Source: a virus
Strand: one strand, 5' to 3'
Virus record (IMG/VR): IMGVR_UViG_3300010413_000005
Span: 1-64,000 of that record
Length of the DNA stretch: 64,000 bases
Part shown: positions 24,538-54,936 of the stretch, piece by piece
Position numbering within the stretch: the stretch's first letter is position 1
Layout of the letters: each line of letters opens with the position of its first letter
Notes under the pieces: model-generated
Seen by the model: the letters and a program-made list of their open reading frames with translations, nothing else
The model's database searches: none
What the model was told of the DNA's origin: nothing
Program-made: the position numbers and the translations under genes

Positions 24538-24545
24538 TTCTCCTC

Positions 24546-26028: not shown

Positions 26029-26654
26029 TATTGAAGCTTTCTTTCTATTTCTTGGCAGATTCTTTCTGTTACTTGAGATGGCATTTCGTTGCCGTCTAAT
26101 ACGACGATATGTTGATAGAATTTCTGCTTCATTCCTTTATACCAACCGTGAACTCTCTTCTGTATATCGTCTGCTTCGGTGTAATCTTTGCGCGTACGAG
26201 ATTCCAATCTCCTTTTTGCTTCTTCCAATTTGACGTCCAACACAAAAGTCAAATCCGGAGGAACGGCGCGACCGTTCACCGTTCTGACGAACATCTCCGA
26301 TTGCCAATTTTCCGACTGATAAGCCATAGATGAATAATAATATCGGTCGCACAGCACGATCATCCCCGTATTGAGCGCCGGCCGAACTTCTCTGTTCAAA
26401 TGGTCCATCCTATCGGCCGCGAACAACAAAGCCATCGTAGCGTCGCCGCGATCGGTTTCTATTTGCCCGGACAGTATCCGACGAATCAATCTGCCTATCG
26501 GTCCGTCGCTCGGTTCCCTCGTGCAATATACGGAGTAGTTCCTCCTACGCAGCTCGCTAGACACAGTTACGATTTGTGTAGTGGTGCCGGAACCGTCGAT
26601 TCCTTCCAGCACCACGAACAACCCTCGTTTCGGAGTAGAAGCGTTATTGGTCAT
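26028..26654 (-). CDS. tmk: Thymidylate kinase
   Basis: P-loop GIDGSGTTTQ near residue 18, REPSDGPIG (the DR/E-P loop), LFAADRMDH, and DRYYYSSMAYQ, with a lid region RLESRTRKDYTEADD. Converts dTMP to dTDP with ATP in the cytoplasm. The 208-residue length is normal. Together with the ThyX, cytidylate kinase and dNMP-kinase genes it feeds phage dNTP synthesis. Confidence 0.9.
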   Translation of the reverse strand: MTNNASTPKRGLFVVLEGIDGSGTTTQIVTVSSELRRRNYSVYCTREPSDGPIGRLIRRILSGQIETDRGDATMALLFAADRMDHLNREVRPALNTGMIVLCDRYYYSSMAYQSENWQSEMFVRTVNGRAVPPDLTFVLDVKLEEAKRRLESRTRKDYTEADDIQKRVHGWYKGMKQKFYQHIVVLDGNEMPSQVTERICQEIERKLQ

Positions 26655-27643: not shown

Positions 27644-28276
27644 TTATCGTAGCGCGATATTGCCTTCCAGGCAAGTACTTTTTTTCAGTTTATTTTGATA
27701 TTTACCTATTTGATTTCCGCAAGGGAACCATCCCGGAAACGTTTCGGTCGCGAACAGTTCGGCGCGCGGCAACTCTCCGCACAACTCCACTATCCTGTCT
27801 CTAACTTCGTCCGGTTTCCTACTGTGTTCCCTTATCGGAGCGAACACCAACTGCGATTGCTTCAATGTATGAATTGGGAACGGCCGGCCGTATTTCACCG
27901 TAGTCGCCGCCAGAACTTGTTCGATATTCGGCTTGACCAAAGTAGGGACCGGACCTCTTCCTGTGATTATCTTGCCTCGCTTGGTGGTTTTGATCCAAAT
28001 GTACGGAACTCCTCTGTAATGCAATCCCCAAGCTTCGATAAGCTTGAATGGCAAATCCAGCTTTGGACACGTTCCCCACATGAATAACACCGATTTCTTG
28101 TGCATCCACTTCCTTACAGGCATCTTACACAAGTCTTCGAAGCTGATCATTTCGTAGTGTTTCCCGCAAGCGGCGTACTTATTTGGATCTCCGTAGTACA
28201 GCCAAGGCGGATCTATGTACAATATACGGAATCCGCCCACCAGAGCGCTGGCTATGTTCATCTCGGGAAACAGCAA
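27644..28276 (-). CDS. MT-A70 family N6-adenine methyltransferase
   Basis: ILYIDPPWLYYG gives the DPPW catalytic motif; the later PPTLVKPNIEQ-like loop, REHSRKPDEVRDRI and PGWFPCGNQ end are typical of MT-A70 enzymes in phages. Likely modifies adenine in phage DNA to evade restriction. The last ~17 codons overlap promoter P4, so the C-terminal tail may be an add-on. A TTG at 28276 and an ATG at 28261 are both possible starts; neither has a strong ribosome-binding site. Confidence 0.85.
   Translation of the reverse strand: MLFPEMNIASALVGGFRILYIDPPWLYYGDPNKYAACGKHYEMISFEDLCKMPVRKWMHKKSVLFMWGTCPKLDLPFKLIEAWGLHYRGVPYIWIKTTKRGKIITGRGPVPTLVKPNIEQVLAATTVKYGRPFPIHTLKQSQLVFAPIREHSRKPDEVRDRIVELCGELPRAELFATETFPGWFPCGNQIGKYQNKLKKSTCLEGNIALR
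27646..27674 (-). promoter_or_regulatory. Promoter P4
   Basis: TTGCCT (27669-27674), 17 bp, TACGAT (27646-27651) on the minus strand, preceded by AAAATAAACTGAAAAAAAGT. It lies inside the last codons of the MT-A70 gene and drives the run from 27619 (zinc protein, tmk, methyltransferase, HNH). Confidence 0.75.
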
Positions 28277-31146: not shown

Positions 31147-31510
31147 TGCGAATCCTTCCTATCCCACGCTTCCAGAATTTAGAGGCCAATTCTTCTCCGA
31201 CGTATTTCGCCAATTGACTTTTGTGTATCAACGCTACTCCGTCGACTCCTACCGGTTCTCCGTTCTGATTGTGGATATCCCAAGAACCGTACCAATCTAT
31301 CAATCTCTGATTGGCTATGACTACGAAGTCCTTGTAGTGTCCGGAGGTTCCTTTCAACGACATGATCCTCTTAATCATGGCTCCGTTGGGAGTGATATCC
31401 ATCCTGTTTACTCTACGACCGGTTTTGCCATTAGTCACTGACTTTTTGGCCTTACACTTGCGCTTTTTTTCGGATCCTGATTTATTCGCCTTTCGATTAC
31501 CCTGTTTCAC
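31106..31510 (-). CDS. Basic hypothetical protein (134 aa), GTG start
   Basis: Lys/Arg-rich N-terminal 35 residues, then a mixed domain with RLIDWYGSWDIHNQNGEPVG. The GTG follows AAAGAGGTTGTCTC and overlaps the uracil-DNA glycosylase gene. Possibly DNA-binding; unrecognised. Confidence 0.55.
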   Translation of the reverse strand: MKQGNRKANKSGSEKKRKCKAKKSVTNGKTGRRVNRMDITPNGAMIKRIMSLKGTSGHYKDFVVIANQRLIDWYGSWDIHNQNGEPVGVDGVALIHKSQLAKYVGEELASKFWKRGIGRIRNGNTKLVGNQAEA

Positions 31511-32129
31511 GAGACAACCTCTTTGCCAGTTTCAAATCTTCGATCGCCATATCGGAGAACTTCTTTCTGTCTTCGGATGACAATCTGATTATGTAGGCCG
31601 GATGGTACGTACAAATCGCTTTCCACGAAAAGACTTCGGAGCGAGAATCCATCACGACCATTTCCAATTCTTCTCCTCTCCAATCTTTCAAAACGGAAAC
31701 GTTGACCATCTTCGCCGGAACTAATCCGAGAAGAACAACCACTTTCGGATTCACTATCTTCAAGAAAGAAACCAAACGAGGTTTGCATTTTGCCATTTCT
31801 TCCCGAGTAGGATTCCTATTCGAAGGAGGACGGCAAGCCACTGTGTTACAAATGAATACGTCTTCTGTTCTATCCAATTCGGATCGATCTAACCAAGAAT
31901 CCAATTCTCTGCCGGCCATACCAACAAACGGAGAACCGGTTTTATCTTCGTTGGCTCCCGGAGCTTCTCCAATCAATGCGATATCGGCCGTAGGAGAACC
32001 GCGCCAATGAACTATCTTGTTTCTGTTACGATGCAGCGGGCAACGTTCGCAACCTGAACACTTCTTTTCCACTCTGGACAGTAAATCCAATTCGTAGAAT
32101 CCTTCTGATCTGGACTTCGTCGATTCCAT
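31497..32129 (-). CDS. Family 4 uracil-DNA glycosylase
   Basis: [10 protein letters not shown] near 24-33, [20 protein letters not shown] (54-73, motif A), CNTVACRPP (94-102), a further Cys near 114, and YHPAY for motif B. These are the 4Fe-4S and catalytic signatures of UdgA. It removes uracil from DNA. A phage that encodes it is unlikely to use uracil as its normal base, a useful limit for any modified-pyrimidine idea. Sits beside the flap-exonuclease gene. Confidence 0.9.
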
Positions 32130-40684: not shown

Positions 40685-43600
40685 CTATTTGTAGTTGTAA
40701 ATTTTCAAAGCTGTACCGCAGAAGTAACTCGTGCTTCTTCTTCGATCTGATTTCTTCTCTACTTCTACGGCTATCATCTTACCTATGGAAATGTGTTTGC
40801 TAATACTTCTCCAAGTGCTGGCAAAACTTATGATTTCTATGAGTTTTCCGTCCGCACTTATCAATCCTAAGAAGGCCATTTCATTGCCGTTCTTATCGTA
40901 TTTTTTTCGCACGTTAGTTACGATACCTGTATAAAATCCACCTTCTTTGGACTTATGAAATTTGTAATTGGTAGTTCTAATTTCCTTGATTTTGTCATTT
41001 TTCCATTTATAAGTAAGCGCCGGATGCTTTCCGGTGGCTATCAATTCCCAAACGTTCAATTGTTCCCAAGATTGTATTTTGGATCGAAGAGATTCCAAGT
41101 TTACAGCGAAATGCGCTTTCAGATTCTCGTATTTGGCGTTGGGAGTTACACAAGCGATTACCGGAGTGCCTATTCCCTTATCTATGATCGCTCTGTATTC
41201 ATCGAATACGTCGATATCGAACTTGGTCCGATACTGTTTTCCTCCCGGATCTTCCAAGTTGACGTTGGCGTAGCGCGCGCCCCAAAACATCTCTTTTCGT
41301 TCTCTTTCGGACGGCAAGTCTCCGGTGTGAAAGTCGCCTATTTGATTGTATTTGACTTCTACTATGACCGCGGCGACGATACATGCTTTATTCCCGTAAT
41401 CGGCGAAAAAGTCTTCATCACTCATAGAAACTATCGGCAATTTGATATTTTCTTCTATGAAGTCCTTGTACGCTTCTATGGGGTGCGTCCCGAGCGCTAG
41501 CGGATTCACTTCTGAAGAAATCAAACACAAATCTTCTTTTGAGTATTCTTCGGCGCCCTTCGCTTCTTCCAACATAGCGATGACGTCGGCATACTTCTTC
41601 TTAGCCACCAACGCCCAAATAGATTCCAGATTCTCTACCATCCATTTGACGCTGGGAACCATCCCCTCAAGAGCTCCGGCCTTGGACAGAGCCATAACGA
41701 CTCCTTTGTGGCATTTTCTCGCGTCGACTCTAGATATGAAATCCACGAAATCTTTGAATGGCTGATTGGCCATAATAGTATCTGCGGCCGCCGATCCGAC
41801 TCCTTTGATATCTATCAACGAACCTCTGATAGAACGATCGGCCGCGTCCATACTGAAATGCTTCTTGCTGACGTTGATATGCGGAGGTTTCAATTCTATT
41901 CCGTAATTTTTCTTGGCTGCTTTGGCCAATCTTTGTATCCGAACGCGCTCCGGTTCGTTCTTGAGCAACGCCCAATAGAACTCTAACGGATAATGTATCT
42001 TCAACCACATGGTCCAATAGCCTATCAACCCGTATTCGGTAGCGTGCGAATTGTGCGACACTACCGGAGGCGAATCCGGGCTGTGTCCCGCTACGAAATT
42101 GTGTCCTACGGAATCCATCTCCAAATCGTAACAATGCTCTTTACCGTTGGGCGTTATTTTGATTATTTTATCCGCGAAAGTAGGACGGCCCTTGCCCCAA
42201 CGCTTTGTCCTCTCTCCCTTTTCGTAATCCAATTTCTTGTGACAAGAATTGCACAACAAACGCAAATTGGCTTTGCTGTGAAAGGCGGCATGGTTGTAAT
42301 CGCATTCGGCTGGAGATTTGATGTGCGCCACTTCTCCGCCACCTCTGCCTTGGCGACAAATTGTACCGCAATTAGAACATCTGCTATCGGATTCTATCCA
42401 AACTTGCTCTACTTTCAATTTGTATTTGTCGTTGATACGATCCGCTTGGGCGAATCTGGTATCTTTGTTCATCCACCACGGACAATAATCCTTAGCGGTA
42501 TTTTCTCCCATAAACATCAATTCGTCGCCGACAGACAAGCCGGTAGCTATCGATTTGTACCCCCTAGAAGTCATCAACCTGTGCATTCGGCTGATGGCCG
42601 GAGTTTTGTTGCCGGATTCCGTTTCTATGACAAACGTTTCGCGAATGCCGTGATCATGTATTCCTATTAGACGTGCCGGCCGAACGCGCCCATCTTCGTC
42701 CATTTGCAAAAGATGTAATCGACCACCTCTTATCTTTTTCGCTATCGGAGTCAAACGTCCTTTTTCGTCTCTAGAATCTCTCAAACGAACCAACTCTCCG
42801 ATTTGTATTTGCGATTTAGAATGGCTATTAGCTCCTGGCTTCCAAACCCATGCGTTTTTACATATAGTCTTGTTAAATCCGTACGAGCCAAAAAATGTTA
42901 TCGCGTCCATTATCTTATTGGCAGTTTTCGCGTCGACTCCGGCGTGTTTAGCGGCGCCTTCAACGAACTTCGCGCGTTCTTTCCCCAAAGTCTCGTCGCC
43001 TATCTTCTTGGCTATCGTTTTGCGCAATGAATCCGCGGTTCCGGGAGCGAATCCGGCGATGTCTGTGAATATGCGTATAACGTGTTCTTGGTAAACTATG
43101 ATCCCCAACGTGTCCGATGTTATTTCCGATACCTTTGGGTGGAAGTCTACCTTTTTGGCCAACTTCGGATTCTTTTTGCGTTGTATGTACTTCGTAGCCA
43201 AGCCGGACCGAGCGGTCCCTGGTCTGTTCAACGCAGTCATGGCAGGTATGTCTTCGAAGTCGGTGAAGTTGATACCCATGCAAATCTTATCAGCGCTAGG
43301 CGTATCGTATTGGAAAATTCCGTCGTATTTGTGATCAGTGAATCCCTGTAGCGTTTCCGGATCGTTCAAATCGAAGTCGTCGGATTCCAAGTCCAATTTC
43401 TCTCCGGTATTCTCTTCGATCGCTTCCAAACATTCTTTGATGACGGTGAGAGTTCTCAAACCCAACACGTCTATTTTCACCAATCCCACCGCGGCGACGT
43501 TGTACATGTCGGTTGCTGTGACCACTACCGAATCGCCTCCGGATTCCGCTTTACGAACTTCCAACGGCAATAAATCGGTCAACGGGACCGGAGATGCTAC

Positions 43601-45322
43601 GACTCCGGCCGCGTGTATGCCCGGATTCTTAGCCAATCCTTCCAGGCTCTTGGCGTGATAGAGCACCTTTGGATATTTCTTATCGAATTTTCTACACACG
43701 TCGAAGTCTTTGAACGAATCGGCTATTGTCTGACTGGCGCGTTCGTCTCCGCTCGAACGCTCGATGATGCTTTTGGTTACTTGATTGACTTCCGACAACG
43801 GAACTTCCAAAACGCGAGAAACGTCCTTCAAACATTGTTTACCGGATAGTTTGCCCACGGTTGCGATCTGAGCCACTTTATCGCGCCCATACTTACTCAC
43901 CAAATATTCAAATATCTCTTGTCGTCTTCTGTCTTCGAAATCACAATCGATATCCGGCAAGTCGATACGATACGGATTCATGAATCTTTCGAATATCAAT
44001 CCGTGCTCCAGCGGATCGACAGAGGTTATTCCGAGCAAATATGCCACCAAACATCCTCCTACGGAACCGCGTCCTGGTCCGCACATGATTCCGGAGCTTC
44101 GAGCGAATTTGTACAAGTCTCTGATTATCAAGAAATACGGCACGAATTTCAATTTTACAATTGAACCCAATTCGTACTTCAACCTGTTTCCGTACGTCTG
44201 TATAGCGTCTTCGTAACTCACCCCGTTTTTGGCAGAGTATTTACGCGCTCGGGATTTGATATTCCTCCAAGCCCATCCTTCTAAACACAAATCTTTTAAA
44301 TAAGCTGTTTGATCTCCGCGATATTTATCAGGTACGGATAAGTCGGGCAACAAGGCTTGGTGGTAATCGACTTTGAATTCCACGTTACACATTTCTGATA
44401 ACTTCACAGTTGAATTCAAAGCTTCCTTGACGTCTGTTACGGAGAAAAACGGATGGTATTTGAAGAAAGCGGATTTCATTTCTTTCCGCTTTCTCATATG
44501 AAATTCGTTCCCGTCGAATTTGAATCTGTTCGGATCGCTCATGAAGTTATTCGTACCGATACACAACAAAACCTCGTGATGTTCGGAATCGCTCTGGTGT
44601 ACGTAGTGCGCGTCTTGTGTTGCCAACAGCCTATTGGACTTCCCGTATCTCTTGCGCAACTCGAGAGCGAATTTGTTGGCCGTCAATTGGTCCGGAATGT
44701 TGTGCGGTTGGACCTCAATCCACAGATTACTACCGAACTCATCTCTCAATCGATCGGCAAATTCGATCGCGAACCTTTTCTTACCCAGCACGCATGAATC
44801 GTATACCGGACTAGCCAGACATCCCGTGCCCAAACTGATTCCTTCTTTGTACTCGCACAAAGCTTCAAGATCGATTCTCGGTTTGTAATAAAATCCGTCG
44901 ATGTAAGCCGAACTGGACAGTCTGAATAGGTTCTTCAATCCCTCCGAGTTGTGCGCCCAAGCCGTTATGTGCCAGCGTTTTGATATGCCGTGTTTCTCTT
45001 CGTATTCCTTGATGACTTTCTTGGCTTCTGCTCCCTTCTTGCCTTCTGAAATCTCGTTCTTTTCCTCCGCGGTCAATCCCTTCCTGTGCATATTATTACA
45101 CACGTAAAATTCGATTCCGTATATCGGCTTCACGTCGGTTCCCTTGCACTCTTCGTATTGGTGCATATATCCGCGCATGGTTCCGTGATCGGTAAAAGCG
45201 ATCGCCGGATTGCCTCTTTGTTTGGCTTCTTCTACGTAGTCCTTGATTTTACTTCCACCATCCAAAGTAGAATTATCACTATGCGTGTGCAAGTGTACGA
45301 AGTCTTCTTTTTTATTTGGCAT
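40685..45322 (-). CDS. dnaE: DNA polymerase III alpha subunit (DnaE-type) with intein
   Basis: Extein of about 1274 residues. PHP domain starts VHLHTHSDNSTLDGG (His10, 12, 14); GPGRGSVGGCLVAYLLGIT precedes palm motif PDIDCDFEDRR (Asp457, 459, 461); fingers and thumb follow. The intein occupies 821-1091 between YGFNKTI and SHATEYG. A replicative polymerase of the bacterial C family for phage DNA synthesis; no intrinsic DnaQ exonuclease is seen. No sliding clamp or clamp loader is seen in this window, so host ones may be used or lie elsewhere. Upstream genes of the modification-like operon overlap it. Confidence 0.95.
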   Translation of the reverse strand: MPNKKEDFVHLHTHSDNSTLDGGSKIKDYVEEAKQRGNPAIAFTDHGTMRGYMHQYEECKGTDVKPIYGIEFYVCNNMHRKGLTAEEKNEISEGKKGAEAKKVIKEYEEKHGISKRWHITAWAHNSEGLKNLFRLSSSAYIDGFYYKPRIDLEALCEYKEGISLGTGCLASPVYDSCVLGKKRFAIEFADRLRDEFGSNLWIEVQPHNIPDQLTANKFALELRKRYGKSNRLLATQDAHYVHQSDSEHHEVLLCIGTNNFMSDPNRFKFDGNEFHMRKRKEMKSAFFKYHPFFSVTDVKEALNSTVKLSEMCNVEFKVDYHQALLPDLSVPDKYRGDQTAYLKDLCLEGWAWRNIKSRARKYSAKNGVSYEDAIQTYGNRLKYELGSIVKLKFVPYFLIIRDLYKFARSSGIMCGPGRGSVGGCLVAYLLGITSVDPLEHGLIFERFMNPYRIDLPDIDCDFEDRRRQEIFEYLVSKYGRDKVAQIATVGKLSGKQCLKDVSRVLEVPLSEVNQVTKSIIERSSGDERASQTIADSFKDFDVCRKFDKKYPKVLYHAKSLEGLAKNPGIHAAGVVASPVPLTDLLPLEVRKAESGGDSVVVTATDMYNVAAVGLVKIDVLGLRTLTVIKECLEAIEENTGEKLDLESDDFDLNDPETLQGFTDHKYDGIFQYDTPSADKICMGINFTDFEDIPAMTALNRPGTARSGLATKYIQRKKNPKLAKKVDFHPKVSEITSDTLGIIVYQEHVIRIFTDIAGFAPGTADSLRKTIAKKIGDETLGKERAKFVEGAAKHAGVDAKTANKIMDAITFFGSYGFNKTICKNAWVWKPGANSHSKSQIQIGELVRLRDSRDEKGRLTPIAKKIRGGRLHLLQMDEDGRVRPARLIGIHDHGIRETFVIETESGNKTPAISRMHRLMTSRGYKSIATGLSVGDELMFMGENTAKDYCPWWMNKDTRFAQADRINDKYKLKVEQVWIESDSRCSNCGTICRQGRGGGEVAHIKSPAECDYNHAAFHSKANLRLLCNSCHKKLDYEKGERTKRWGKGRPTFADKIIKITPNGKEHCYDLEMDSVGHNFVAGHSPDSPPVVSHNSHATEYGLIGYWTMWLKIHYPLEFYWALLKNEPERVRIQRLAKAAKKNYGIELKPPHINVSKKHFSMDAADRSIRGSLIDIKGVGSAAADTIMANQPFKDFVDFISRVDARKCHKGVVMALSKAGALEGMVPSVKWMVENLESIWALVAKKKYADVIAMLEEAKGAEEYSKEDLCLISSEVNPLALGTHPIEAYKDFIEENIKLPIVSMSDEDFFADYGNKACIVAAVIVEVKYNQIGDFHTGDLPSERERKEMFWGARYANVNLEDPGGKQYRTKFDIDVFDEYRAIIDKGIGTPVIACVTPNAKYENLKAHFAVNLESLRSKIQSWEQLNVWELIATGKHPALTYKWKNDKIKEIRTTNYKFHKSKEGGFYTGIVTNVRKKYDKNGNEMAFLGLISADGKLIEIISFASTWRSISKHISIGKMIAVEVEKKSDRRRSTSYFCGTALKIYNYK
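42050..42862 (-). other. HNH-containing intein in the DNA polymerase
   Basis: A 271-residue intein: Cys1 (CKNAWVWKPG, block A), block B with GNKTPAISRMHRLM (His), an HNH nuclease CSNCGTICRQG, HIKSPAECDYNHAA and NLRLLCNSCHKKLD, blocks F/G ending VVSHN before Ser+1. All splicing residues (Cys1, block-B His, His-Asn, Ser+1) are present, so it should splice. The nuclease may make it mobile. The N-extein ends GFNKTI where a plain GFNK would be expected next to SHATEYG; the extra TI may be part of the insertion site. Confidence 0.9.
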
Positions 45323-45587: not shown

Positions 45588-46607
45588 CTATTCGTTCTCT
45601 AATCTTTCTCCGGTCCAAGGATTCCTTTGCCAGAACACTGCGTATTCCGCGGCGCGATCGATCATCTCGTAAGCCATAGGAACCTTGTATTTGTGCAACG
45701 TATCGATTTGATGAGCTTTCGATATATCTTCTTGTTTCCCCATCTGTTCAGGTATTCTGTGGTGACGGAAATGAAGAGGACAAGGAGGATGTTGATCCAA
45801 TCCTTCGTACCGACGTCGATTCTCTTCGTGATAGACGCATCCGGAAAAACAATCGTCCTTGATACACGGAGGGCAAACCAGTTCCGCGAACGCCGGATGG
45901 ACCTTGTTGACCAGTTCGCTTACTATTCCCATGATGACTGGACCCCACAACCCCAATTGCAAAATGAAACAACCTCGTTCTCCGACTATGTGTTGCAACG
46001 AACTGATGTTCATTTTCCAACTCATACGGTGTTGAGATGCGAGCGGCATCGTATCCCGAGCGTCTTCCATAGGTATGTTGCTAGCCACCAAGAAATTGTA
46101 AGTTAGCTGTATTCTCTCCATCAGATCGACGTACGCCCTCAACACGTTAGGATCTCCGTGTCTCAAGATGCTTTCCGGTATGCGATAGTCGCTATCGGTA
46201 AAGAATCGACCTTGATTCCGGATGCGCATTGACTGCGACCAGAACGACGATTTGGCCAGGTCTGGTACAATGTCCATGTAGATATCGGCTCCGATCGATT
46301 CCGGTCCTGGAAGAACTCCGATTCTGTGACGCACGGCTTGTTCCCTCCAAGATATCGAAATGTGTTCCAACATGAAAGTGAAGTCGATGTGTTCTCCTAC
46401 CGGTATGCGTTGTTTTATCACCGAGTGAAAAACGTCTTGCACTTCTTTCGCCGATACCTTCGAATACACTTGGTCCGGAGTCAATAACTCGTCGTCGTTT
46501 TTCGAAGCTTGCCAAACACTGTAAATCGTTTCCAACGGAAACGCTGTGAAAGTCAACAGCGTGACTTTCGGAGTCTTTACCAATCTTTTGTTCGCATTAT
46601 TTTCCAT
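45588..46607 (-). CDS. thyX: Long ThyX-like flavin-dependent thymidylate synthase with Cys-rich tail
   Basis: SISWREQAVRHRIGV (87-98) is the ThyX RHR motif, and ARDTMPLASQHRMSW and HIVGERGCFILQLGLWGPV match the later ThyX helices. After RHR the usual S-x-N/E-x-S-x-R is replaced by GVLPGPESIGADIY. The C-terminal ~90 residues add Cys245, 248, 253, 257 and 276 with several His, which ThyX normally lacks and which could bind zinc or an Fe-S cluster. It may make dTMP or a modified relative such as 5-hydroxymethyl-dUMP (inference). Starts behind GAAAGGAGATCGAA. Confidence 0.75.
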   Translation of the reverse strand: MENNANKRLVKTPKVTLLTFTAFPLETIYSVWQASKNDDELLTPDQVYSKVSAKEVQDVFHSVIKQRIPVGEHIDFTFMLEHISISWREQAVRHRIGVLPGPESIGADIYMDIVPDLAKSSFWSQSMRIRNQGRFFTDSDYRIPESILRHGDPNVLRAYVDLMERIQLTYNFLVASNIPMEDARDTMPLASQHRMSWKMNISSLQHIVGERGCFILQLGLWGPVIMGIVSELVNKVHPAFAELVCPPCIKDDCFSGCVYHEENRRRYEGLDQHPPCPLHFRHHRIPEQMGKQEDISKAHQIDTLHKYKVPMAYEMIDRAAEYAVFWQRNPWTGERLENE

Positions 46608-47181
46608 TTCGATCTCCTTTCGTCAATATGCTAACCGCCAAGTCCCAAAGTCCTTCCGGCGATGTGTGATCTGTGATCAATTTCCACACGCGTGGTACGT
46701 GTTTCCCGATTTGATCGGAGGCGTAATCCAACCGATTGTTTATTCGTTCGGCGTTCTCGGGCATCCTAATTCCCACCCTGCCAACCGAAGTTTTGATGTC
46801 GCACATCAAATGGATGTAAGTCAAATCGGTTCTGGATTTGATGATGTCTATCCACCATTGTAACGTTTCTTCGGCCATTTCTCGATTGAAAAAATCTCCG
46901 TCTTCCAACCCGTACGCGAACGCTGACGGCATCGAACGATCTAACACACATTCCAACGACGTGAATTTGGATAACAAATCCGCTACGAATAGATCTTCTA
47001 CGTACGAATTGAAAGGGATCCTGAATCTCCTCAGTTTCAATTCCAATTCCTTGGCGTGTTTGAAATGAATTGCTGTGTCGTCCTTGAATGCTCTTACGAT
47101 AGGGATATTGAAATATCCACTGACTTTTTTGGCTAGAGTCGTTTTACCGACTCCGTTCATCCCTTCGATTATCACTAACAT
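46597..47181 (-). CDS. Deoxynucleotide/nucleoside kinase-like protein
   Basis: EGMNGVGKTT (6-15) is a P-loop; DRSMPSAFAYG (~81-91) is the DR(S/Y) motif of thymidylate and deoxynucleoside kinases; the lid is Arg-rich (GRVGIRMPENAER). The genome also has a standard tmk at 26 kb, so this second kinase likely has another substrate, perhaps a modified deoxynucleotide made by its neighbours. Overlaps both adjacent genes. Confidence 0.7.
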   Translation of the reverse strand: MLVIIEGMNGVGKTTLAKKVSGYFNIPIVRAFKDDTAIHFKHAKELELKLRRFRIPFNSYVEDLFVADLLSKFTSLECVLDRSMPSAFAYGLEDGDFFNREMAEETLQWWIDIIKSRTDLTYIHLMCDIKTSVGRVGIRMPENAERINNRLDYASDQIGKHVPRVWKLITDHTSPEGLWDLAVSILTKGDRNGK

Positions 47182-48368
47182 CGTGATTTAGCTTCCATCG
47201 CCGAATGTGCTTGTTCCAGAATAGACAATCCGTAATCGAGATCGTCAAGTGTGATATTCAGCGGAGGAGTGATTTTCACCGGTCCTGGTCCCTTCCGGAA
47301 CGCTCCTATGAGCAGACCTCTCTTCAAACATTCCTGCCCCAATTCCAACACGTCGTGCGGACTATCGTACGCTATCAACAGGCCGGTTCCTCTAACGTTT
47401 TTCGGATATCCGATTTTGCCCAACACGCTTTTGACGTGAGACGATTTGCCGTTTATCGAATCCATGTTGGGCGAATACTCCAGATAGTCCAACATACCGT
47501 TCACGTGCGCCATACCGATCGGATTACCTCCGAACGTAGAGAAGTGAGTTCCGGAGGTGAATGTTTCGCTAAACGGTTTCAACGCCAAACAAGCTCCGAC
47601 CGGGCATCCCATAGCTACTCCCTTGGCCATCGTCATTACGTCCGGCTGTACGCCTATCTTTTTCGCGTAAGAGAAATCTCCGCAGCGTCCGGCGCCGGTT
47701 TGGACTTCGTCGAATATCAACGTTATGTTGTGTTCGTTACACTTGACTCTCAAGTCGATCAACCAGTTGTGATCGTATTCTCGGACGTCGTTGTTGCCGA
47801 ATACTGGAGCTATGAGGACCGCGGTGGCCAAATATGGATCTATCTCTTCCAGATGTTCGAATTTTCTGAATCCTCCAGTCAGCGGTCCGAATCCCTCTGT
47901 GTGGTGCGGAGGACCGTCGCCGGCCGATAGCGATCCCAGAGTTCGGCCATGAAATGATCCTTTCACTGTGTAAATGTATTTGCTACGTCCTGATTCGTAC
48001 GTAAAATCTGATTTGAATCTCTTGTATTGATACAAACGCGCCAACTTGATCGCCGCTTCGACCGCTTCGGTTCCGCTGTTACAAAAAAACACCTTATCCA
48101 TACCGGTCAAATAACACAGACGTTCCGCGGCGATGTTTCTCTCCTCGAAGCTGAACAGATTGGGAACGTGAACCGGAGTGTGATTCCCTTTCATATCGCT
48201 AATCACTCTTTCGTGACACACGGAACAATATCCCAACGACGAAGTTCCGACGTCGCAGAAGAAATCCAGGAATCTCTCTCCGCGTCTGGTAATCAAATAA
48301 GATCCGTTTCCCGATACGAACTCGGGAGCGTATTGATTCAAAGTATTCATCAACGATTTGTTACACAT
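47175..48368 (-). CDS. Class III PLP aminotransferase (ArgD/OAT-like)
   Basis: FCNSGTEAVEAAIKLAR (95-111), KGSFHGRTLGSLSAG (136-150), DEVQTGAGR (220-228) and the PLP lysine in TMAKGVAMG (Lys249) define the fold type I class III. The usual EP-(I/V)-x-GxxG segment is altered to APVFGNND, changing the residue that normally contacts the substrate, so the substrate probably differs from ornithine. Aminotransferases of this class are unusual in phages. In an operon with ThyX and a dN kinase it could install or remove an amine on a modified base precursor (inference). Starts behind GGAGGACAATAG. Confidence 0.8.
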   Translation of the reverse strand: MCNKSLMNTLNQYAPEFVSGNGSYLITRRGERFLDFFCDVGTSSLGYCSVCHERVISDMKGNHTPVHVPNLFSFEERNIAAERLCYLTGMDKVFFCNSGTEAVEAAIKLARLYQYKRFKSDFTYESGRSKYIYTVKGSFHGRTLGSLSAGDGPPHHTEGFGPLTGGFRKFEHLEEIDPYLATAVLIAPVFGNNDVREYDHNWLIDLRVKCNEHNITLIFDEVQTGAGRCGDFSYAKKIGVQPDVMTMAKGVAMGCPVGACLALKPFSETFTSGTHFSTFGGNPIGMAHVNGMLDYLEYSPNMDSINGKSSHVKSVLGKIGYPKNVRGTGLLIAYDSPHDVLELGQECLKRGLLIGAFRKGPGPVKITPPLNITLDDLDYGLSILEQAHSAMEAKSRC

Positions 48369-49273
48369 CTATTGTCCTCCGCTAATCTGGTTATGTCCTT
48401 CCAATTGTATACCCTTGTGATGCTTTCGTGTTCCACGGATTTGTTTTTAGGAGTGTCGTAAAGTAAAACCTTGATTCCGGCTTGCGCCAATGATAATGCG
48501 TTCCTATCCAAGTCTTCTACGAAAAAAATCGGCCATGCCGGAGAAATGTGTCTGTAAACCGCCTCTACTTTGTCTCTGTTGAAAAGCAATATGTCGTACG
48601 GTATTTTGTATTTGCGCAACCACCATAAGGTATCGTGATACATTCTCTTGAATTGCCATTGCGGTCGCGCCGTTATTATGGCTATCTTATACCCCATCGA
48701 TTTCAATTTTCTGATTCCGGTAATCGCTCCGCGGATCGGTTTCAATTCCCGGAGGAATCCCTTCGAATGCAATTCATCCTTGTATGCTTCGATTTCGTCG
48801 AATCCCTTGCCTCTGTATTCTCTTTCGCTTTTAGAACGCAGAGCGTTGAAATCGGTTATCACGTCGTCCATGTCCAAACAAATCAACTTGGTGAACTTGG
48901 ATAATTTGAATTTGGCCGCGGTCGCGCGCGTCGATATCACTTTGGTTTTGCTATCGAACACCTTGGCTATGTCTTCCGGTTCGATTCCGTACACCAAAGA
49001 CAAAGAAATCGTGATTTTCAGAATATCCACCAATTCCTCTACCACATTACGTTTATCGGGAGAGTGTGTGTCCAAAAGGTGTCGTTTGTAGGAAGGTGAC
49101 AAACGAGCCAATTCGCCCACTTCTTCGTACAACAACATCGTCAGATCTTGAATCGCTCGAGTCGCCTCTAAATTGCTCATGCAAGACGAATCCATTCCGA
49201 ATTCCTTCTGCTGTTCTTTTTGCAGCTTCCAGAATGCGTCCAAGGATCTATCGAGCGATTTCTTACTTTCCAT
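48350..49273 (-). CDS. MazG/dUTPase-like domain fused to HAD 5'-nucleotidase
   Basis: Residues ~10-110 form an all-alpha NTP pyrophosphohydrolase-like domain (LLYEEVGELARLS, Glu50/51/54; VVEELVDILKI, Glu79/80, Asp83). Residues ~125-307 are a HAD phosphatase: ICLDMDDVITDF (Asp134, Asp136), IITARPQW, a Lys in NRDKV and FFVEDLDRNA. Chained, they could convert a dNTP to dNMP and then to deoxynucleoside, wiping out a canonical nucleotide. Substrate is unknown; dCTP or dTTP/dUTP are plausible. The fusion supports a role in pool replacement. Behind AAAAGGGAGTAGGCG. Confidence 0.75.
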   Translation of the reverse strand: MESKKSLDRSLDAFWKLQKEQQKEFGMDSSCMSNLEATRAIQDLTMLLYEEVGELARLSPSYKRHLLDTHSPDKRNVVEELVDILKITISLSLVYGIEPEDIAKVFDSKTKVISTRATAAKFKLSKFTKLICLDMDDVITDFNALRSKSEREYRGKGFDEIEAYKDELHSKGFLRELKPIRGAITGIRKLKSMGYKIAIITARPQWQFKRMYHDTLWWLRKYKIPYDILLFNRDKVEAVYRHISPAWPIFFVEDLDRNALSLAQAGIKVLLYDTPKNKSVEHESITRVYNWKDITRLAEDNRCVTNR

Positions 49274-50258
49274 CGCCTACTCCCTTTTTCCTCCAACCCC
49301 AATGCTTAGCCAAATCGTACGCTTGCTCCATGACGACGTCGACGGTGGCGCGCGGATTCCAACTCGCGAACCGACCCAACGGCGCGACTCTTTCCGGCCA
49401 TTGAGGAGGTTCCGCCAATGGTAGCAAATGCCCTTTCATATTCCTTTTCCATTCCAGTATTTCGAATCCGTTGGGGAATAGAAAATTCAAATCAGAATAA
49501 ACTCCTGATTCGTTCATTTCTCCGGATACTTCACACGAATAGAATCCGTCTACGTATGACAACCTGTGTATGGAATTTCCCGGAGTGTACGGTGTGTAAA
49601 CGTAATCCCAACGAACGTACGGATTGCCTACCGGTTTCACGTTTATCAAATGCAAGGCCATCGCCGTAGAATCGGGAAAGTGTTCGAAATGTCCTATCTT
49701 TTTGATGATCCACAACGGTATGGTGAATACCAAATAATCGAAATCGAACGTAACGGCGTTGGTGTTTATCGCGATTCCGGCGTCAAGAGAGAACGTAGCT
49801 ATAGCGCTATTGTTTATATTGGCTCGTTTGCCCAATTCTTCTATCAACGCGTTCAAATCACATCTCATGCCCTTTTTCGTGTTACCGGAGAACGGATCGT
49901 TCATGCACTTGGTAGAGAATTCGCTGGGTTCCATCTTGCGCGTTTTTACGTAATGATCGTGCTGTATACGCTCAAACGCCTTCCGTCCTACTTTCTGCAT
50001 GTGTTTACGATAGTCCTTGACTTCTCCTTGTAAGTGTATCCCTCCCTTTATGGTGAAGTTGCTGTACGCCAAACCGAGTTCTCCGAGCATCGATCTGATC
50101 AGATTACTTTTGTGTAGATACTTCAATCCTCCAGAGGAGAACTCTCCTCCCAATTTGTTGGGTTCGAATACCGTCACTTCGATATCGTAAAATTGATTGA
50201 AAACGTAAGACGCGACCAACCCGGAGATTCCTCCTCCTACCACAATTACTTTTTTCAT
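49263..50258 (-). CDS. FAD-dependent oxidoreductase (amine oxidase/mutase-like)
   Basis: GGGISGLVASYVF (8-20) is the dinucleotide-binding fingerprint; FEPNKLGGEFSSGGLKY matches the second FAD contact. A C-terminal GRFASWNPRATVDVVMEQAY is the FAD-binding end seen in UDP-galactopyranose mutases and amine oxidases. 331 residues, shorter than typical amine oxidases. First enzyme of the operon; it could oxidise an amine or modified base. Its ATG overlaps the stop of an 18-codon leader ORF. Confidence 0.75.
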   Translation of the reverse strand: MKKVIVVGGGISGLVASYVFNQFYDIEVTVFEPNKLGGEFSSGGLKYLHKSNLIRSMLGELGLAYSNFTIKGGIHLQGEVKDYRKHMQKVGRKAFERIQHDHYVKTRKMEPSEFSTKCMNDPFSGNTKKGMRCDLNALIEELGKRANINNSAIATFSLDAGIAINTNAVTFDFDYLVFTIPLWIIKKIGHFEHFPDSTAMALHLINVKPVGNPYVRWDYVYTPYTPGNSIHRLSYVDGFYSCEVSGEMNESGVYSDLNFLFPNGFEILEWKRNMKGHLLPLAEPPQWPERVAPLGRFASWNPRATVDVVMEQAYDLAKHWGWRKKGVGDGK

Positions 50259-50311
50259 AAAACGTCCTTAAATACAAAACGCCCACCACGGCCGGAGATC
50301 GAAGCAGCCAT
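50255..50311 (-). CDS. 18-codon leader ORF coupled to the FAD oxidoreductase gene
   Basis: ATG 50311 lies behind TAGGAGGGCGCCTGCT; the TGA overlaps the oxidoreductase ATG (ATGA). The peptide (MAASISGRGGRFVFKDVL) has no known domain. A coupling leader is likelier than a working peptide. The oxidoreductase itself has only a weak site of its own (AAGGACGTTTT). Confidence 0.4.
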   Translation of the reverse strand: MAASISGRGGRFVFKDVL

Positions 50312-50324
50312 AGCAGGCGCCCTC

Positions 50325-51209
50325 CTAAACACGATTCGAAACCTCGTCCAAATCGGTTCCGGAAGGTGACCCTATGATACCTTCACCGATGAATCTACAT
50401 ATAATTTCTGCTACTATGGCTATCCCTTCTATATCCATTTTTCCAGTTTTGGTGATGAACTTGCCATCCGAAAATTCTATCAAAAACAGCTTTTCTATTT
50501 CTCCTTTTCGAAAACATTCCAGAGGAGCAGCTATCCTAATTTCAGCCTTTCTGATGCGTATGGATGGACAAATAGCGGCGACCGCTACGCGGCGATTCTT
50601 AGGCAACTCCAAATACACAGACATGTAACGGCTGTTCTTCATCCTATCGATTACCACCAAATCTCCGACCGAAGCGTTTTTGGATCGCGAAATTCTCTTG
50701 CCGGAAATATTGGACAACCTTTGGAAGAATCTCATACAGAAATCTCGCGCTCGATCCAATGCGTCGCTGGCAGCCGTTCTTTTGGATTCGGTGATTTTCT
50801 TTTTCGTGCTATCGTCCATCGGAGACGCTTTACGCAAAGACGTAACGTTTTTACGCCTTTTGGCTTTCACCGCGGAAACCTCCGGTTTTGATTTTGTAAT
50901 TCTGCCATTTACTATTCCCCAAGCTTCGATAGTCTTGTTCAACAACGCTATCAAATCTTCGTCTTCCAAATGTGTGAAACAATACGTTCGGCGATCTCCG
51001 TCTTCGTCGGTGATTCTTTCGCGTCGCATGTAATTGGATACTCTGAGACTATTCGATTTGCAATGTTTCCTCAACGCAACACATCGATTCCTCATCACGC
51101 AAGGCATCTTATCGATCGGAGAATCTCCTTTTCGTTCTCCGTCGCATTGCGTATCTTTACGGGAATAATACCCGAAACATCTAGGGTACTTTTTTTTGTT
51201 TTCGAGCAT
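50325..51209 (-). CDS. Hypothetical protein with N-terminal Cys cluster (294 aa)
   Basis: Cys residues in YPRCFGYYSRKDTQC and MPCVMRNRCVALRKHC form a likely zinc or Fe-S motif; the middle is Lys/Arg-rich and Ser-rich; the last third is beta-alpha mixed. Located between the sigma-like gene and the modification-like operon. Not recognised. Basic character suggests nucleic-acid contact. Confidence 0.6.
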   Translation of the reverse strand: MLENKKKYPRCFGYYSRKDTQCDGERKGDSPIDKMPCVMRNRCVALRKHCKSNSLRVSNYMRRERITDEDGDRRTYCFTHLEDEDLIALLNKTIEAWGIVNGRITKSKPEVSAVKAKRRKNVTSLRKASPMDDSTKKKITESKRTAASDALDRARDFCMRFFQRLSNISGKRISRSKNASVGDLVVIDRMKNSRYMSVYLELPKNRRVAVAAICPSIRIRKAEIRIAAPLECFRKGEIEKLFLIEFSDGKFITKTGKMDIEGIAIVAEIICRFIGEGIIGSPSGTDLDEVSNRV

Positions 51210-52209
51210 CTGAAAGCTTTTTTACCAGTTGTGAATACCAAGTCACGTAATCTGACACATATTTCCAAGTGTATTCAGCTCCTGAAACACCTCCTGTAAT
51301 CAAATTGTATTTACCCTCTAAAACCAAAGTCTTATGAATCTTTCCCTTCTTCAAGAACAGTACCGCTCCCCAATGGTAGTAATGAACCTCTCTCGCCCAT
51401 TCTCCGGCCGATTGGATATCCCTGGCCGGATCGTTAGGTCTGGGATCAAGATTGCGTTTCTTGATTATCTTTCTGACGAAATCGTAATCGAATTTGTTAT
51501 TCTTGCTTAGGTGTATCATGGGCCAAGTACCCTTGTCTATATATATCTGTGATATCTCGGGAAATTCTGATTCTGCCAGATACGTAAACGCCCTCCTGAT
51601 TCGTAGGCTGGAATAGTCGACCGCGTTCTTGCTCACACCGATATACTTGGCTATCAATCCGTTGGTCATCTCGGATTCGCCTTCGTTGTCCATGAAAATC
51701 ATGAACGCCTCCGGTGGATGACACATGATATCCAAAACGGTCCGATCTCGTTCGCACAACTTGTTTCTCAATTTCATTTTCAATTCCAGGCGACGCTGGT
51801 TGTCTTCGGATTGTTCGTAAACGGAATACGGATCCGGGATGTCTCCCTTGATAGTTTCTCCGGATTGCTCGGCCATCTCTTCTATCGAGACTAACTGCCA
51901 AGCCTGTTTGGAAACTATCATCCGTCCGTTTCTTTCTTGAACTACGTGCGGAACCTTGGAATTGGTCATAGAATTCTGTATTATTCTTATGGCTTCGTAT
52001 CTCAAAACCTTACTGACGAATCTGTGGAATTTACCTCTTCCGGCGTTGAAATCGTACGAATCGAAACACCTCTGAAACATGGCCACGCGCAATTCTTGCA
52101 TTGCGTCGTCGAACGGGATACCGGAAGCGATGTTGATTTTTCTAGCGTGCGTTTTCAGAATTGGCCATACGTGCTTTTCCAAATCCGCGTACAATTCTTG
52201 TAAAACCAT
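51181..52209 (-). CDS. Divergent sigma70-family factor
   Basis: IPFDDAMQELRVAMFQRCFDSYD and FHRFVSKVLRYEAIRIIQNSM resemble sigma region 2 (core binding, -10 recognition). ERDRTVLDIMCHPPEAF then GLIAKYIGVSKNAVDYSSLRIRRAF fits region 4 with a helix-turn-helix. No region 3 is obvious; a ~120-residue C-terminal extension is unique. It may program late transcription while the RpoD-like factor at 16.8 kb serves another stage (inference). Start at 52209 behind AAAAAGGGAGATCGAA. Confidence 0.7.
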   Translation of the reverse strand: MVLQELYADLEKHVWPILKTHARKINIASGIPFDDAMQELRVAMFQRCFDSYDFNAGRGKFHRFVSKVLRYEAIRIIQNSMTNSKVPHVVQERNGRMIVSKQAWQLVSIEEMAEQSGETIKGDIPDPYSVYEQSEDNQRRLELKMKLRNKLCERDRTVLDIMCHPPEAFMIFMDNEGESEMTNGLIAKYIGVSKNAVDYSSLRIRRAFTYLAESEFPEISQIYIDKGTWPMIHLSKNNKFDYDFVRKIIKKRNLDPRPNDPARDIQSAGEWAREVHYYHWGAVLFLKKGKIHKTLVLEGKYNLITGGVSGAEYTWKYVSDYVTWYSQLVKKLSDARKQKKVP

Positions 52210-53824
52210 TTCGATCTCCCTTTTTACCGAACAACTTCTTTCCCAGACCACTGTACAAAGCCAAGGGTAAATCATCCAATTTCATTATCGCGGAACAAAC
52301 GGCTCCGGTTTTCTGATTGTAAAATGCGGCCACATCTATAGTAAGCACGCCTATGGATATCACTTCTATTCCGGATTTCGTTATCGTTTCCACAGATTCA
52401 GCCAAATGGTTGGCTAAAATACCACTGTCGCATCCGTACGCCAAGGGCGCTCCGTCCGACAATACAATCAACACTTTGCGCTTTTCTTGTCGCACTATCA
52501 AACGTTTAGCAGCAGACAAAATCGCTTCTCCGTCCGCGTTATCCATGTATCCGTCGATGAAAGAGAATCTACTTCTGCACACATTTAGTCTTTCATCGAA
52601 TTCCTTGAATACTATGTAATCGAACGGCGCTCGAGCCTGATATATCTCGTCTTCGAAGTTGATTCCCTTCGGATATCTTTCCACATTGTTGTGAAATCCC
52701 AATACTTCAAACGGGATTCCCAATCTCTCTATGGTGTCGGATAATCCTACGGCGGATACTCTTACGTGCCAAGCCTTGGTCTTTTTCTTTTTCGCCTTGC
52801 CCATGGAACCGGACAAGTCAATCAAAATCAATATCGCTGTTGAAGTATCGACCGGAGCTCCGCGTTCATAATGCACGTTTCGATTACCGGTTATGACCGA
52901 ATGTAGAGAAGAAGAATCCAGAAATCCGCTATCTCGGTCGCCGATCGGAGCGCGTTCCTTTTCCGCTCTCATTGTTTCGATAATCGCCCTGCGCATCGCC
53001 GAAGCATTCTTCTTCGTTTCTGACAAGTCGGATACGAACGTGGACGCGTTTCCGGTAGTCGGTTTCACCCAACGGTCCATGGCCAAACAATCCGGATGCG
53101 GAATGTATCTGCCATTCTTCAACACGTCGTTCTTTGATTCCTGTTCGATTTTGTCTTTCAATCGCGATTTGAAATCGAAAGATTGCTCTCCGGCCGGAGG
53201 GATGAACGAAATCATAGGAGATATCTTCTTGGCCAATTCGTATGTACTTTCGGAATCGGCAAGCGATTTCACAGACAAAAACATCTCAGATATCGGTTCG
53301 TATTCGGATCTAACGTGATCCGGAATCCACCTCAAATCCAGATTCAACCCGTCGGATATCGCTGCGCACAAAAGCATTTTGAAGTCGGACAATTCTCCGG
53401 CCTTGGATTGCTTCTCTAACAACTTCGACGCCTCATTGTTGGAGAAATCCAGATTGTCTTTCATTCCCGGATAAATCGCGCCGTATTTCAATTCTATTCT
53501 GATGTCTTCCAAAGCGTTGAATGCCGACTTCACTTTCACGTCGGATTCGTTTTTGTACAGATCTACGGCGCCCCTCAAACCGCGATTCTTGGAATACACT
53601 TCTTCGGCCGCGTGACACAATTCGTGATCCAGTTCTCCGTTCAACGCGCGCATTGAGGACTTGCCCAGTTTGTCCGAATTGTAAGGCAATCTTATCACGG
53701 TTCCGTCGAAATCACAACGGCATCCGGTCATTTCCACTGATACGTGGTAATTGTTCGATATCGCGCGCGCTATGTTAGCGAACGGAGTCTCCAGCTTCCG
53801 GAGGTGTTGAACAGATTTTTTCAA
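52142..53824 (-). CDS. CobT-like VWA protein with HEXXH motif
   Basis: The C-terminal half has a von Willebrand A fold: ILILIDLSGSMGKA (MIDAS Asp336, Ser338, Ser340) and VLIVLSDGAPLAYG. The N-terminal half has DHELCH (His67-Glu68-His71), a zinc-protease-like motif, and acidic helices. It pairs with the MoxR-type ATPase directly upstream, as CobS/CobT or MoxR/VWA pairs do to remodel a target. TTG start behind GGAGGAACTAC. Function unknown in phage. Confidence 0.8.
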   Translation of the reverse strand: MKKSVQHLRKLETPFANIARAISNNYHVSVEMTGCRCDFDGTVIRLPYNSDKLGKSSMRALNGELDHELCHAAEEVYSKNRGLRGAVDLYKNESDVKVKSAFNALEDIRIELKYGAIYPGMKDNLDFSNNEASKLLEKQSKAGELSDFKMLLCAAISDGLNLDLRWIPDHVRSEYEPISEMFLSVKSLADSESTYELAKKISPMISFIPPAGEQSFDFKSRLKDKIEQESKNDVLKNGRYIPHPDCLAMDRWVKPTTGNASTFVSDLSETKKNASAMRRAIIETMRAEKERAPIGDRDSGFLDSSSLHSVITGNRNVHYERGAPVDTSTAILILIDLSGSMGKAKKKKTKAWHVRVSAVGLSDTIERLGIPFEVLGFHNNVERYPKGINFEDEIYQARAPFDYIVFKEFDERLNVCRSRFSFIDGYMDNADGEAILSAAKRLIVRQEKRKVLIVLSDGAPLAYGCDSGILANHLAESVETITKSGIEVISIGVLTIDVAAFYNQKTGAVCSAIMKLDDLPLALYSGLGKKLFGKKGDRNGFTRIVRGFGKARMANSENAR

Positions 53825-54936
53825 GTAGTTCCTCCGAAATGTCTCTGTACCAATCCGCCTACGAAAACGGAATCCGAAGCGTCCATCTTATTCAATATGG
53901 TGATTCGCGCCGCTCGAGTTACATCTTTCAGTTTCAAATTTTTGCGCGACCATTCGATCAACGACCGAGTTGAAATGGACGAATAGCAATCTCCTCTACT
54001 GCAAGACTCTCTAACCATGTTGGCCAATCTGACCATCTTGGTCGCCGTTCGGTCGTCTATTCCCTTACACCGCTTCATCAATATGGATTTTTCCACTTTC
54101 GGACTCGGGAACGTCATATATATCACGACTCCGAACCGATCGACGAATGACTCTTTTTGAGGCAAATCATTACATGTAGCGATGATTCTGAAATTGGGAT
54201 CGAATTCGATCGATCTGCCTCCGTCTCCGGTGATTACCAGCTGGCGAGGTTTGGTCATGGCGGTGTACAACGAAAACGATATGTGTCCGGGCATCGCTTC
54301 GACTTCTTCCAACAGTAGCCAATAACCGCGATCGGCCGATATCGGTAGCGAACCGTCAAACCATTCGGTTTTTGATTGCCCGGTCTTCTTGTCGATGGTC
54401 ACACCCTTTTCTCCGATGAATTCGGCTTTGCGCATATCCCCATCGTTTTGTACCCTCAATACCGGTTGATTGCAGATCGAAGCCAACTCCATAACCAGGG
54501 TGGATTTACCGACTCCGACCGGTCCGTGTATCAGAACATTGTCGTCATCTTCGATTCCCAAAGACAACTCCTCAAGATGACCCGCTTCTCGATCTGATAT
54601 GATCCATTCCGGATCATGTATCGGAACCATTTTGGAATCTCTCTCCGAGAGCTCTCTTTTGAAAGAAGGACTCGCAGCCCCTATTCTGAATACTGTAAAA
54701 GATGATCCGGTTCCCGGATCGACTCCGATTATGTTATGGCGACTTGCCTCTTTGCGCAATTGGTGCGCTGCGTCGCTGACCGTCGGAGCTCCGGGATACT
54801 TGTTCAGATACGCGATGACGTCCATATCGTGTTTCTTGTTCACGTGGACGTCTAATCGATGATACCATTGTCCGCATTCTTTACACTGTATTTTTTTGCG
54901 GCCTTTTCCGTCAATGCTGCTAGTAGGATCTCCCAT
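53821..54936 (-). CDS. MoxR/CobS-like AAA+ ATPase with N-terminal zinc-finger-like domain
   Basis: CKECGQWYHRLDVHVNKKH (18-36) is a C2H2-like knuckle, followed by a MucR-like DVIAYLNKYPGAP helix. The AAA+ core has GPVGVGKST (Walker A), YWLLLEEVEAM (Walker B), FRIIATCNDLPQ (sensor 1) and FVDRFGVVIYM (Arg finger region). Partner of the VWA gene. It directly follows promoter P6 with nearly no 5' leader. Confidence 0.85.
   Translation of the reverse strand: MGDPTSSIDGKGRKKIQCKECGQWYHRLDVHVNKKHDMDVIAYLNKYPGAPTVSDAAHQLRKEASRHNIIGVDPGTGSSFTVFRIGAASPSFKRELSERDSKMVPIHDPEWIISDREAGHLEELSLGIEDDDNVLIHGPVGVGKSTLVMELASICNQPVLRVQNDGDMRKAEFIGEKGVTIDKKTGQSKTEWFDGSLPISADRGYWLLLEEVEAMPGHISFSLYTAMTKPRQLVITGDGGRSIEFDPNFRIIATCNDLPQKESFVDRFGVVIYMTFPSPKVEKSILMKRCKGIDDRTATKMVRLANMVRESCSRGDCYSSISTRSLIEWSRKNLKLKDVTRAARITILNKMDASDSVFVGGLVQRHFGGTT

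Follow-up and report, generated by a model that had tools for sequence, protein, structure and literature searches.

A viral operon with a divergent ThyX paralogue that probably builds a modified uracil in place of thymine

The hydroxymethyl-dUMP (deoxyuridine monophosphate) pathway of phages SPO1 and phiW-14 uses a ThyA-type hydroxymethylase and, to our knowledge, the known phage replacements of thymine start from such an enzyme. In the post-replicative systems of phages M6, PaMx11, and ViI, flavin and pyridoxal phosphate (PLP) enzymes produce amino-modified thymidines by acting, downstream of a DNA kinase, on 5-hydroxymethyldeoxyuridine (5-hmdU) within DNA. Here we describe an operon in a 64,000-nucleotide stretch (the window; positions 1 to 64,000) of the 113,818-base IMG/VR virus record IMGVR_UViG_3300010413_000005, five genes of which probably produce a non-standard DNA base; a modified uracil that takes the place of thymine is the likeliest form. 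Like that of SPO1 and phiW-14, the proposed pathway would replace dTTP at the level of the nucleotide pool by a modified deoxynucleoside triphosphate (dNTP), with destruction of canonical dTTP. In contrast to those phages, no ThyA homologue (PF00303) was found in the window genome or in any of the phages searched that carry a related gene cassette. The association of amino-modified thymidines with flavin and PLP enzymes recalls M6, PaMx11, and ViI, but here a kinase of the deoxynucleoside monophosphate (dNMP) type and a ThyX paralogue, denoted ThyX', point to synthesis at the mononucleotide level. Neither the 5-hmdU DNA kinase nor aGPT-Pplase turned up in the family scans made, which were not a genome-wide search for either. 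In kind, the system belongs with known cases of phage pyrimidine replacement, from which it differs in its first enzyme and in having a new set of partners; no description of a ThyX-based hypermodification route was found in the open literature (most subscription papers lay outside the search).

The five open reading frames (ORFs) lie on the minus strand, as do all other features located in the window below. In gene order, they encode a flavin adenine dinucleotide (FAD) enzyme with a flavin amine-oxidase/UDP-galactopyranose-mutase (UGM) fold (49263-50258; 331 aa), a MazG-HAD fusion predicted to act as dNTP pyrophosphohydrolase and NT5C-like 5'-deoxynucleotidase (48350-49273; 307 aa), an acetylornithine-transaminase-like class III PLP aminotransferase (47175-48368; 397 aa; 225 bits to Aminotran_3), a P-loop nucleotide kinase, the predicted second dNMP kinase of the genome (46597-47181; 194 aa; matching the thymidylate kinase family phrog_761 at 1.6e-9), and ThyX' (45588-46607; 339 aa). 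The original prediction of a tight five-gene operon was confirmed, in that all neighbours overlap, by 7-19 bp according to the ORF coordinates (11, 19, 7, and 11 bp from the FAD gene to ThyX'). Its assignment of the five genes to enzyme families also stood, at the level at which it was made. The predicted span of 45588-50311 was correct at the ThyX' end (45588) but not at the other, where the first ATG of the FAD gene is at 50258, 53 bp downstream of 50311.

By sequence, ThyX' is a family distinct from canonical ThyX, recognizable by the absence of Tyr91 and by an inserted loop. The window protein scored 64 bits against Thy1 (above the Pfam cut-off of 24.8) and 48.2 bits against the NCBIfam thyX equivalog (below the cut-off of 87.9); Foldseek matched it to Thermotoga maritima ThyX with a target-normalised template-modelling (TM) score of 0.6-0.7. 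In an alignment of 54 ThyX' with 11 canonical phage ThyX proteins, equivalents of Arg78, Arg90, Arg147, and Arg174 were present in all 54 ThyX' and that of Arg80 in 51, whereas Tyr91, found in 11 of 11 canonical proteins, was absent throughout (54/54), its place taken by Ile, Val, Leu, or rarely Met or Ala. The active-site loop was 22-41 residues long in 52 of the 54, as compared to 4-5 in canonical proteins, and in those 52 the RHR-x7-S motif was interrupted: RHR was kept, with the Ser88 equivalent following the insertion. The unusual length of the window ThyX, already remarked upon in the original prediction, includes this insertion (codons 98-121; 46245-46316), which separates RHR (R93-R95) from the block S126/R128/I129 corresponding to S88/R90/Y91 of T. 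maritima ThyX; residues 94-121 were modelled with a predicted local distance difference test (pLDDT) score below 50. Four Cys are conserved, at residues 213 (52/54) and 248, 257, and 276 (each 54/54) of the window protein. Compared with the T. maritima enzyme (TM0449), ThyX' thus shares the Thy1 fold, the RHR arginines, and equivalents of Ser88, Arg90, Arg147, Asn163, and Arg174, but differs in its insertion, a C-terminal Cys extension, its operon partners, and the lack of Tyr91. In a tree, canonical ThyX fell on one side of a branch with support of 100/94, while the cassette ThyX', with one exception, clustered with that of L103 (a cut cassette, the contig starting just before ThyX' and including the kinase) in a single group (100/99) nested among other ThyX'; branches were long, and the program reported the bootstrap as unsettled.

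Both Ser88 and Tyr91 of T. maritima ThyX are conserved and critical; they have been proposed to aid departure of the hydroxyl of the flavin carbinolamine (PMC8316439). When turnover of flavin-dependent thymidylate synthase (FDTS) is quenched with acid, a hydroxymethyl-dUMP species is obtained (PMC4913046). Given this proposed role of Tyr91 and this species, it is plausible by analogy that a Tyr91-less ThyX with a rebuilt loop could yield a product other than dTMP.

Relatives in IMG/VR were recovered with a ThyX query and then with profile queries; the aminotransferase and FAD proteins of the window, each used as a single query, gave no match there. The ThyX profile scans returned 63 loci encoding 55 distinct ThyX' proteins, the window included. 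Genes for the aminotransferase, MazG-HAD, and FAD enzyme stood beside ThyX' in 21 of these 55 distinct contexts (again with the window), and the kinase was present in 20 of the 21, the remaining contig ending at that point. Because the genes recur together in 21 contexts, the operon is more than a chance arrangement. The FAD-MazG-HAD pair was constant at the front of the cassette, followed by the other genes in one of three orders: ThyX'-aminotransferase-kinase, aminotransferase-ThyX'-kinase, or, as in the window, aminotransferase-kinase-ThyX'. Identity of cassette-phage ThyX' to the window protein fell as low as 38-46%, so the shared gene order does not reflect recent copying. A limited, pattern-based scan of cellular genomes detected no relative except a 23% Criibacterium match. 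One cassette relative had two class III aminotransferase genes (L040:9922-13831), and a gene resembling those of sulfotransferases lay beside another cassette (L002:12518-13291), possibly for further tailoring.

Two phages carried ThyX' along with a canonical synthase. In G001, a full cassette was accompanied by a 219-aa canonical ThyX with Tyr91; Listeria phage LIS04 encodes a protein that is ThyA-like by sequence (LIS04_09) as well as a ThyX' relative (LIS04_124; 127-156 bits to ThyX' profiles). This coexistence supports, but does not prove, a separate role for ThyX'.

The partner enzymes appear to be intact. Family searches of the FAD protein gave a Rossmann motif as the sole informative signal (a weak NCBIfam match to MnmC was not used as evidence), but its AlphaFold2 model (pLDDT 79) led Foldseek to UGM, L-amino acid oxidase, nicotine oxidoreductase, monoamine oxidase, and putrescine oxidase; the GxGxxG was retained in 21/21 cassettes. 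Family searches divided the fusion protein into an NT5C/HAD half and a dUTPase_2/MazG-type half, with HAD residues D134, D136, and K235 kept in all 21 cassettes and MazG residues D83, E51, and E54 in 21, 20, and 19, respectively. The aminotransferase bears the class III signature, PLP-binding Lys249 and Asp220 being found in 21/21 and the HGRT Arg in 20/21, while the position of the C-terminal Arg is occupied by Lys in the window and seven other cassettes. An altered active-site segment had originally been taken as a sign of an unusual substrate; with the catalytic residues in place, we dropped that argument. The cassette kinase gave weak matches of the TMK/dNK type and retained the Walker A GK and Asp-Arg in 20/20. 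It is indeed a second kinase, as first proposed, since an ordinary thymidylate kinase gene (tmk; 137 bits to Thymidylate_kin) is located separately at 26028-26654. An S-adenosylmethionine (SAM)-methyltransferase-like protein (23758-24579; 217.7 bits to its family profile) may be an optional sixth member, as its homologues occurred inside the cassette in other phages (G001, G007, G014, and G024, and the L007/L035 cassette).

On this sequence evidence, we consider it fairly likely that the operon makes a C5-substituted deoxyuridine (dU) monophosphate that takes the place of some or all of the dTTP pool and is built into phage DNA. The proposed order of events is as follows: dUMP would be supplied by the phage dCMP deaminase, the gene for which was observed in L017, from the same genome as the window. 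ThyX', dependent on flavin and folate, would add a one-carbon unit at C5 of dUMP and, without Tyr91 and with its loop remodelled, may release, in place of dTMP, a product that is oxidised or substituted, for example 5-hydroxymethyl-dUMP. On the C5 substituent, alcohol, aldehyde, and amine could then be interconverted by the FAD enzyme and the aminotransferase, and in some phages the methyltransferase-like protein may alkylate the product. The cassette kinase would form the diphosphate, and a host nucleoside diphosphate kinase the triphosphate, while MazG-HAD would convert the canonical competitor (most likely dTTP) to dTMP and on to thymidine. The purpose would be to shield phage DNA from nucleases. 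The pool logic follows the precedent of phiW-14, in which a dTTPase depletes infected cells of dTTP and hydroxymethyl-dUTP is present (PMC5977210). The simplest product would be 5-aminomethyl-dUMP, a first guess that we make with low confidence: 5-aminomethyluracil is already known from phages, and polymerases can use dNTPs with basic substituents of this sort, if moderately to poorly (PMC11550810).

A second architecture of ThyX' loci provided a link to Bacillus phage SP-15, in which dihydroxypentyluracil, the base 5-(4,5-dihydroxypentyl)uracil, made as a dNTP, replaces over half of the thymine (PMC5977210). The 34 distinct loci of this architecture (type II, with the cut cassette L103 counted among them) were without the four cassette partners, and encoded instead an A-family DNA polymerase (27 loci), an HD 5'-deoxynucleotidase (21), a nucleoside 2-deoxyribosyltransferase (20), a radical SAM protein (10), a uracil-DNA glycosylase (UDG; 8), or a short-chain dehydrogenase/reductase (SDR; 7). 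Enzymes predicted to remove canonical nucleotides were found in both of these unrelated partner sets. SP-15 has two Thy1 proteins, gp9 and gp130, the latter guessed by its authors to be a hydroxymethyl-uridylate synthase (PMC5977210). Among SP-15 proteins, type II profiles strongly matched the deoxyribosyltransferase (102 bits), the HD nucleotidase (94), and the UDG (82), and weakly the SDR gp129 (18), the gene for which adjoins that of gp130. Like SP-15, in which gp130 occurs besides the normal gp9, the window genome combines a divergent Thy1 gene with a UDG and a dCMP deaminase, and the deoxyribosyltransferase and HD nucleotidase of SP-15 are common among type II relatives of the window ThyX'. 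The window UDG (31497-32129; 102 bits) is of the SP-15/type II kind, and a distant nucleoside 2-deoxyribosyltransferase-like protein (1549-2058) scored 50.8 bits against PF05014, the Pfam family typical of type II loci, but did not match the type II profile; no SDR was detected in the window with the type II/III profiles. In SP-15, the SDR stands in the place of the FAD enzyme, aminotransferase, and MazG-HAD, and gp130 resembles ThyX' distantly. As gp130 and LIS04_124 did not align beyond chance, the link rests on gene context and Thy1 membership. The UDG had been read as an argument against plain dU in the genome; SP-15, a modified-uracil phage, also carries one of this family, and we no longer take it to indicate which base is present. 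In three contigs (L010, L011, and L013), two Cys-containing Thy1 paralogues were clustered with a NADAR protein and a radical SAM/SPASM protein, perhaps representing a two-step ThyX' route.

The SP-15 comparison bears on an alternative that we regard as unlikely, though the best of those considered: that ThyX' is a C5-alkylating enzyme, condensing a larger aldehyde with dUMP through a flavin N5 adduct to leave a longer side chain in DNA, like that of dihydroxypentyluracil. The aldehyde would come from an amine by way of the cassette aminotransferase and FAD amine oxidase, or be pentose-derived through an SP-15-like deoxyribosyltransferase and SDR. The enlarged substrate loop, the acetylornithine-transaminase-like character of the aminotransferase, and the closeness of the SDR to ThyX' in type II loci, as of gp129 to gp130, are all consistent with it, yet gp130 is very divergent, gp129 reached only those 18 bits, and we know of no ThyX that uses a larger aldehyde. 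ThyX does take up free formaldehyde via a flavin carbinolamine (PMC8316439). A ribose label is also reported to enter the SP-15 side chain.

The FAD module extends beyond the ThyX' loci. Some 40 further viral contigs had a MazG-HAD relative, in most cases with the FAD gene directly upstream, along with SDRs, epimerases, dUTPase, or kinases; many had a Tyr91-less Thy1, mostly with Cys. A third recurring architecture, seen in many contigs (L064-L091), places dUTPase-like, kinase, and RmlD-type epimerase genes after the FAD-MazG-HAD pair. In Vibrio phage VA-RY-3 the FAD gene immediately precedes a Tyr91-less ThyX, near which a sulfotransferase-like gene by Pfam (L025:8369-9124) might contribute further tailoring. 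The Pbunavirus phages (PB1, JG024, LMA2), not known as hypermodified, have an FAD gene and a Tyr91-less ThyX gene a few genes apart, and JG024 has separate MazG and HAD genes. By tblastn, the FAD gene was found in 359 phage records and the ThyX variant in 348; both sets are largely Pbunavirus, and the hosts listed for the two are much alike. The DNA of these phages reportedly withstands many restriction enzymes: JG024 DNA is cut by XbaI but not by ScaI, NdeI, or BsaI (for which we counted 2, 10, and 5 sites, respectively), and, of 16 enzymes, 10 fail to cut phage AA20 and 7 phage AC20, with cutting retained at GC-only CCGG sites. This pattern is consistent with a modified A or T, without proving one.

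Several observations weigh against a modified uracil made by way of ThyX'. Neither a ThyA nor a second ThyX was found in the 113.8-kb record, and most other cassette contigs, which are possibly incomplete, had no second thymidylate synthase, which leaves room for dTMP synthesis by ThyX'. The alignment of SP-15 gp130 with ThyX' was weak (66% probability from a single sequence). In Pbunavirus, the FAD match was distant and at the profile level (53-55 bits), ThyX was without the loop insertion, and no aminotransferase or cassette kinase was detectable; XbaI and HindIII, with T-containing sites, cut the DNA, JG024 lacks sites for 2 of the 16 enzymes, and the JG024 authors suggested methylation as the cause of resistance. 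The moderate to poor use of basic dNTPs by polymerases is a point against aminomethyl-dU.

The lack of a second synthase in most contigs, together with the retained Thy1 fold and dUMP/FAD-binding arginines, would suit ordinary nucleotide supply, in which ThyX' makes dTMP, the kinase dTDP, MazG-HAD cleans the pool (e.g. of dUTP or nucleotides of the host), and the other two enzymes of the cassette serve some unrelated purpose. We judge this improbable given the 21 shared contexts, the loss in 54/54 ThyX' of a tyrosine critical in ThyX, the canonical synthases of G001 and LIS04, and the normal tmk already in the genome. Least probable is action on dCMP, or a decoy or signal nucleotide that never enters DNA: the remodelled substrate loop leaves base specificity open and the window phage has a cytidylate kinase, but the equivalents of R147 and R174 are kept (R174 activates dUMP via N3 deprotonation; PMC8316439), the dCMP deaminase can feed dUMP, and a nucleotide-destroying fusion with a kinase is better suited to incorporation. 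Pyrimidine hypermodification or pool replacement, as originally proposed, is thus supported as the best explanation by the distinct ThyX' family, its coexistence with a canonical synthase, the SP-15-like gene kit, and the Pbunavirus resistance.

Among the neighbouring genes, a CobT-like VWA protein and a CobS-like AAA ATPase (52142-54936) adjoin the operon and are kept in most cassette phages. The interval from CobT to the FAD gene (50325-52275) holds two genes, one of them sigma-factor-like by eye, that are also kept beside the cassette. On the other side, a C-family DNA polymerase III alpha (40685-45322) has an apparent intein or similar insertion, its relatives aligning only outside residues 813-1063 or so. 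Dam-type and MT-A70-type N6-adenine methyltransferases are encoded at 20252-21070 and 27644-28276; adenine methylation has to be distinguished from any pyrimidine modification.

More broadly, and tentatively, since we hold it rather less likely than the reading of the window operon itself, ThyX' paralogues may be a large unrecognised family of nucleotide C5-functionalising enzymes with interchangeable partner modules (FAD enzyme, aminotransferase, and kinase; deoxyribosyltransferase and SDR; radical SAM; FAD enzyme and MazG-HAD), making varied hypermodified pyrimidine dNTPs and explaining both the SP-15 route and Pbunavirus resistance. The thymidylate-synthase annotation in several hundred phage records may then hide another function, which calls for caution. 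If the proposal is true, a ThyX-based route assisted by pyridoxal and flavin would be new enzymology for the synthesis of a DNA letter before replication, would supply candidate genes for the SP-15 base, and would offer a testable account of restriction resistance in the widely used Pseudomonas phages of the PB1/JG024 group.

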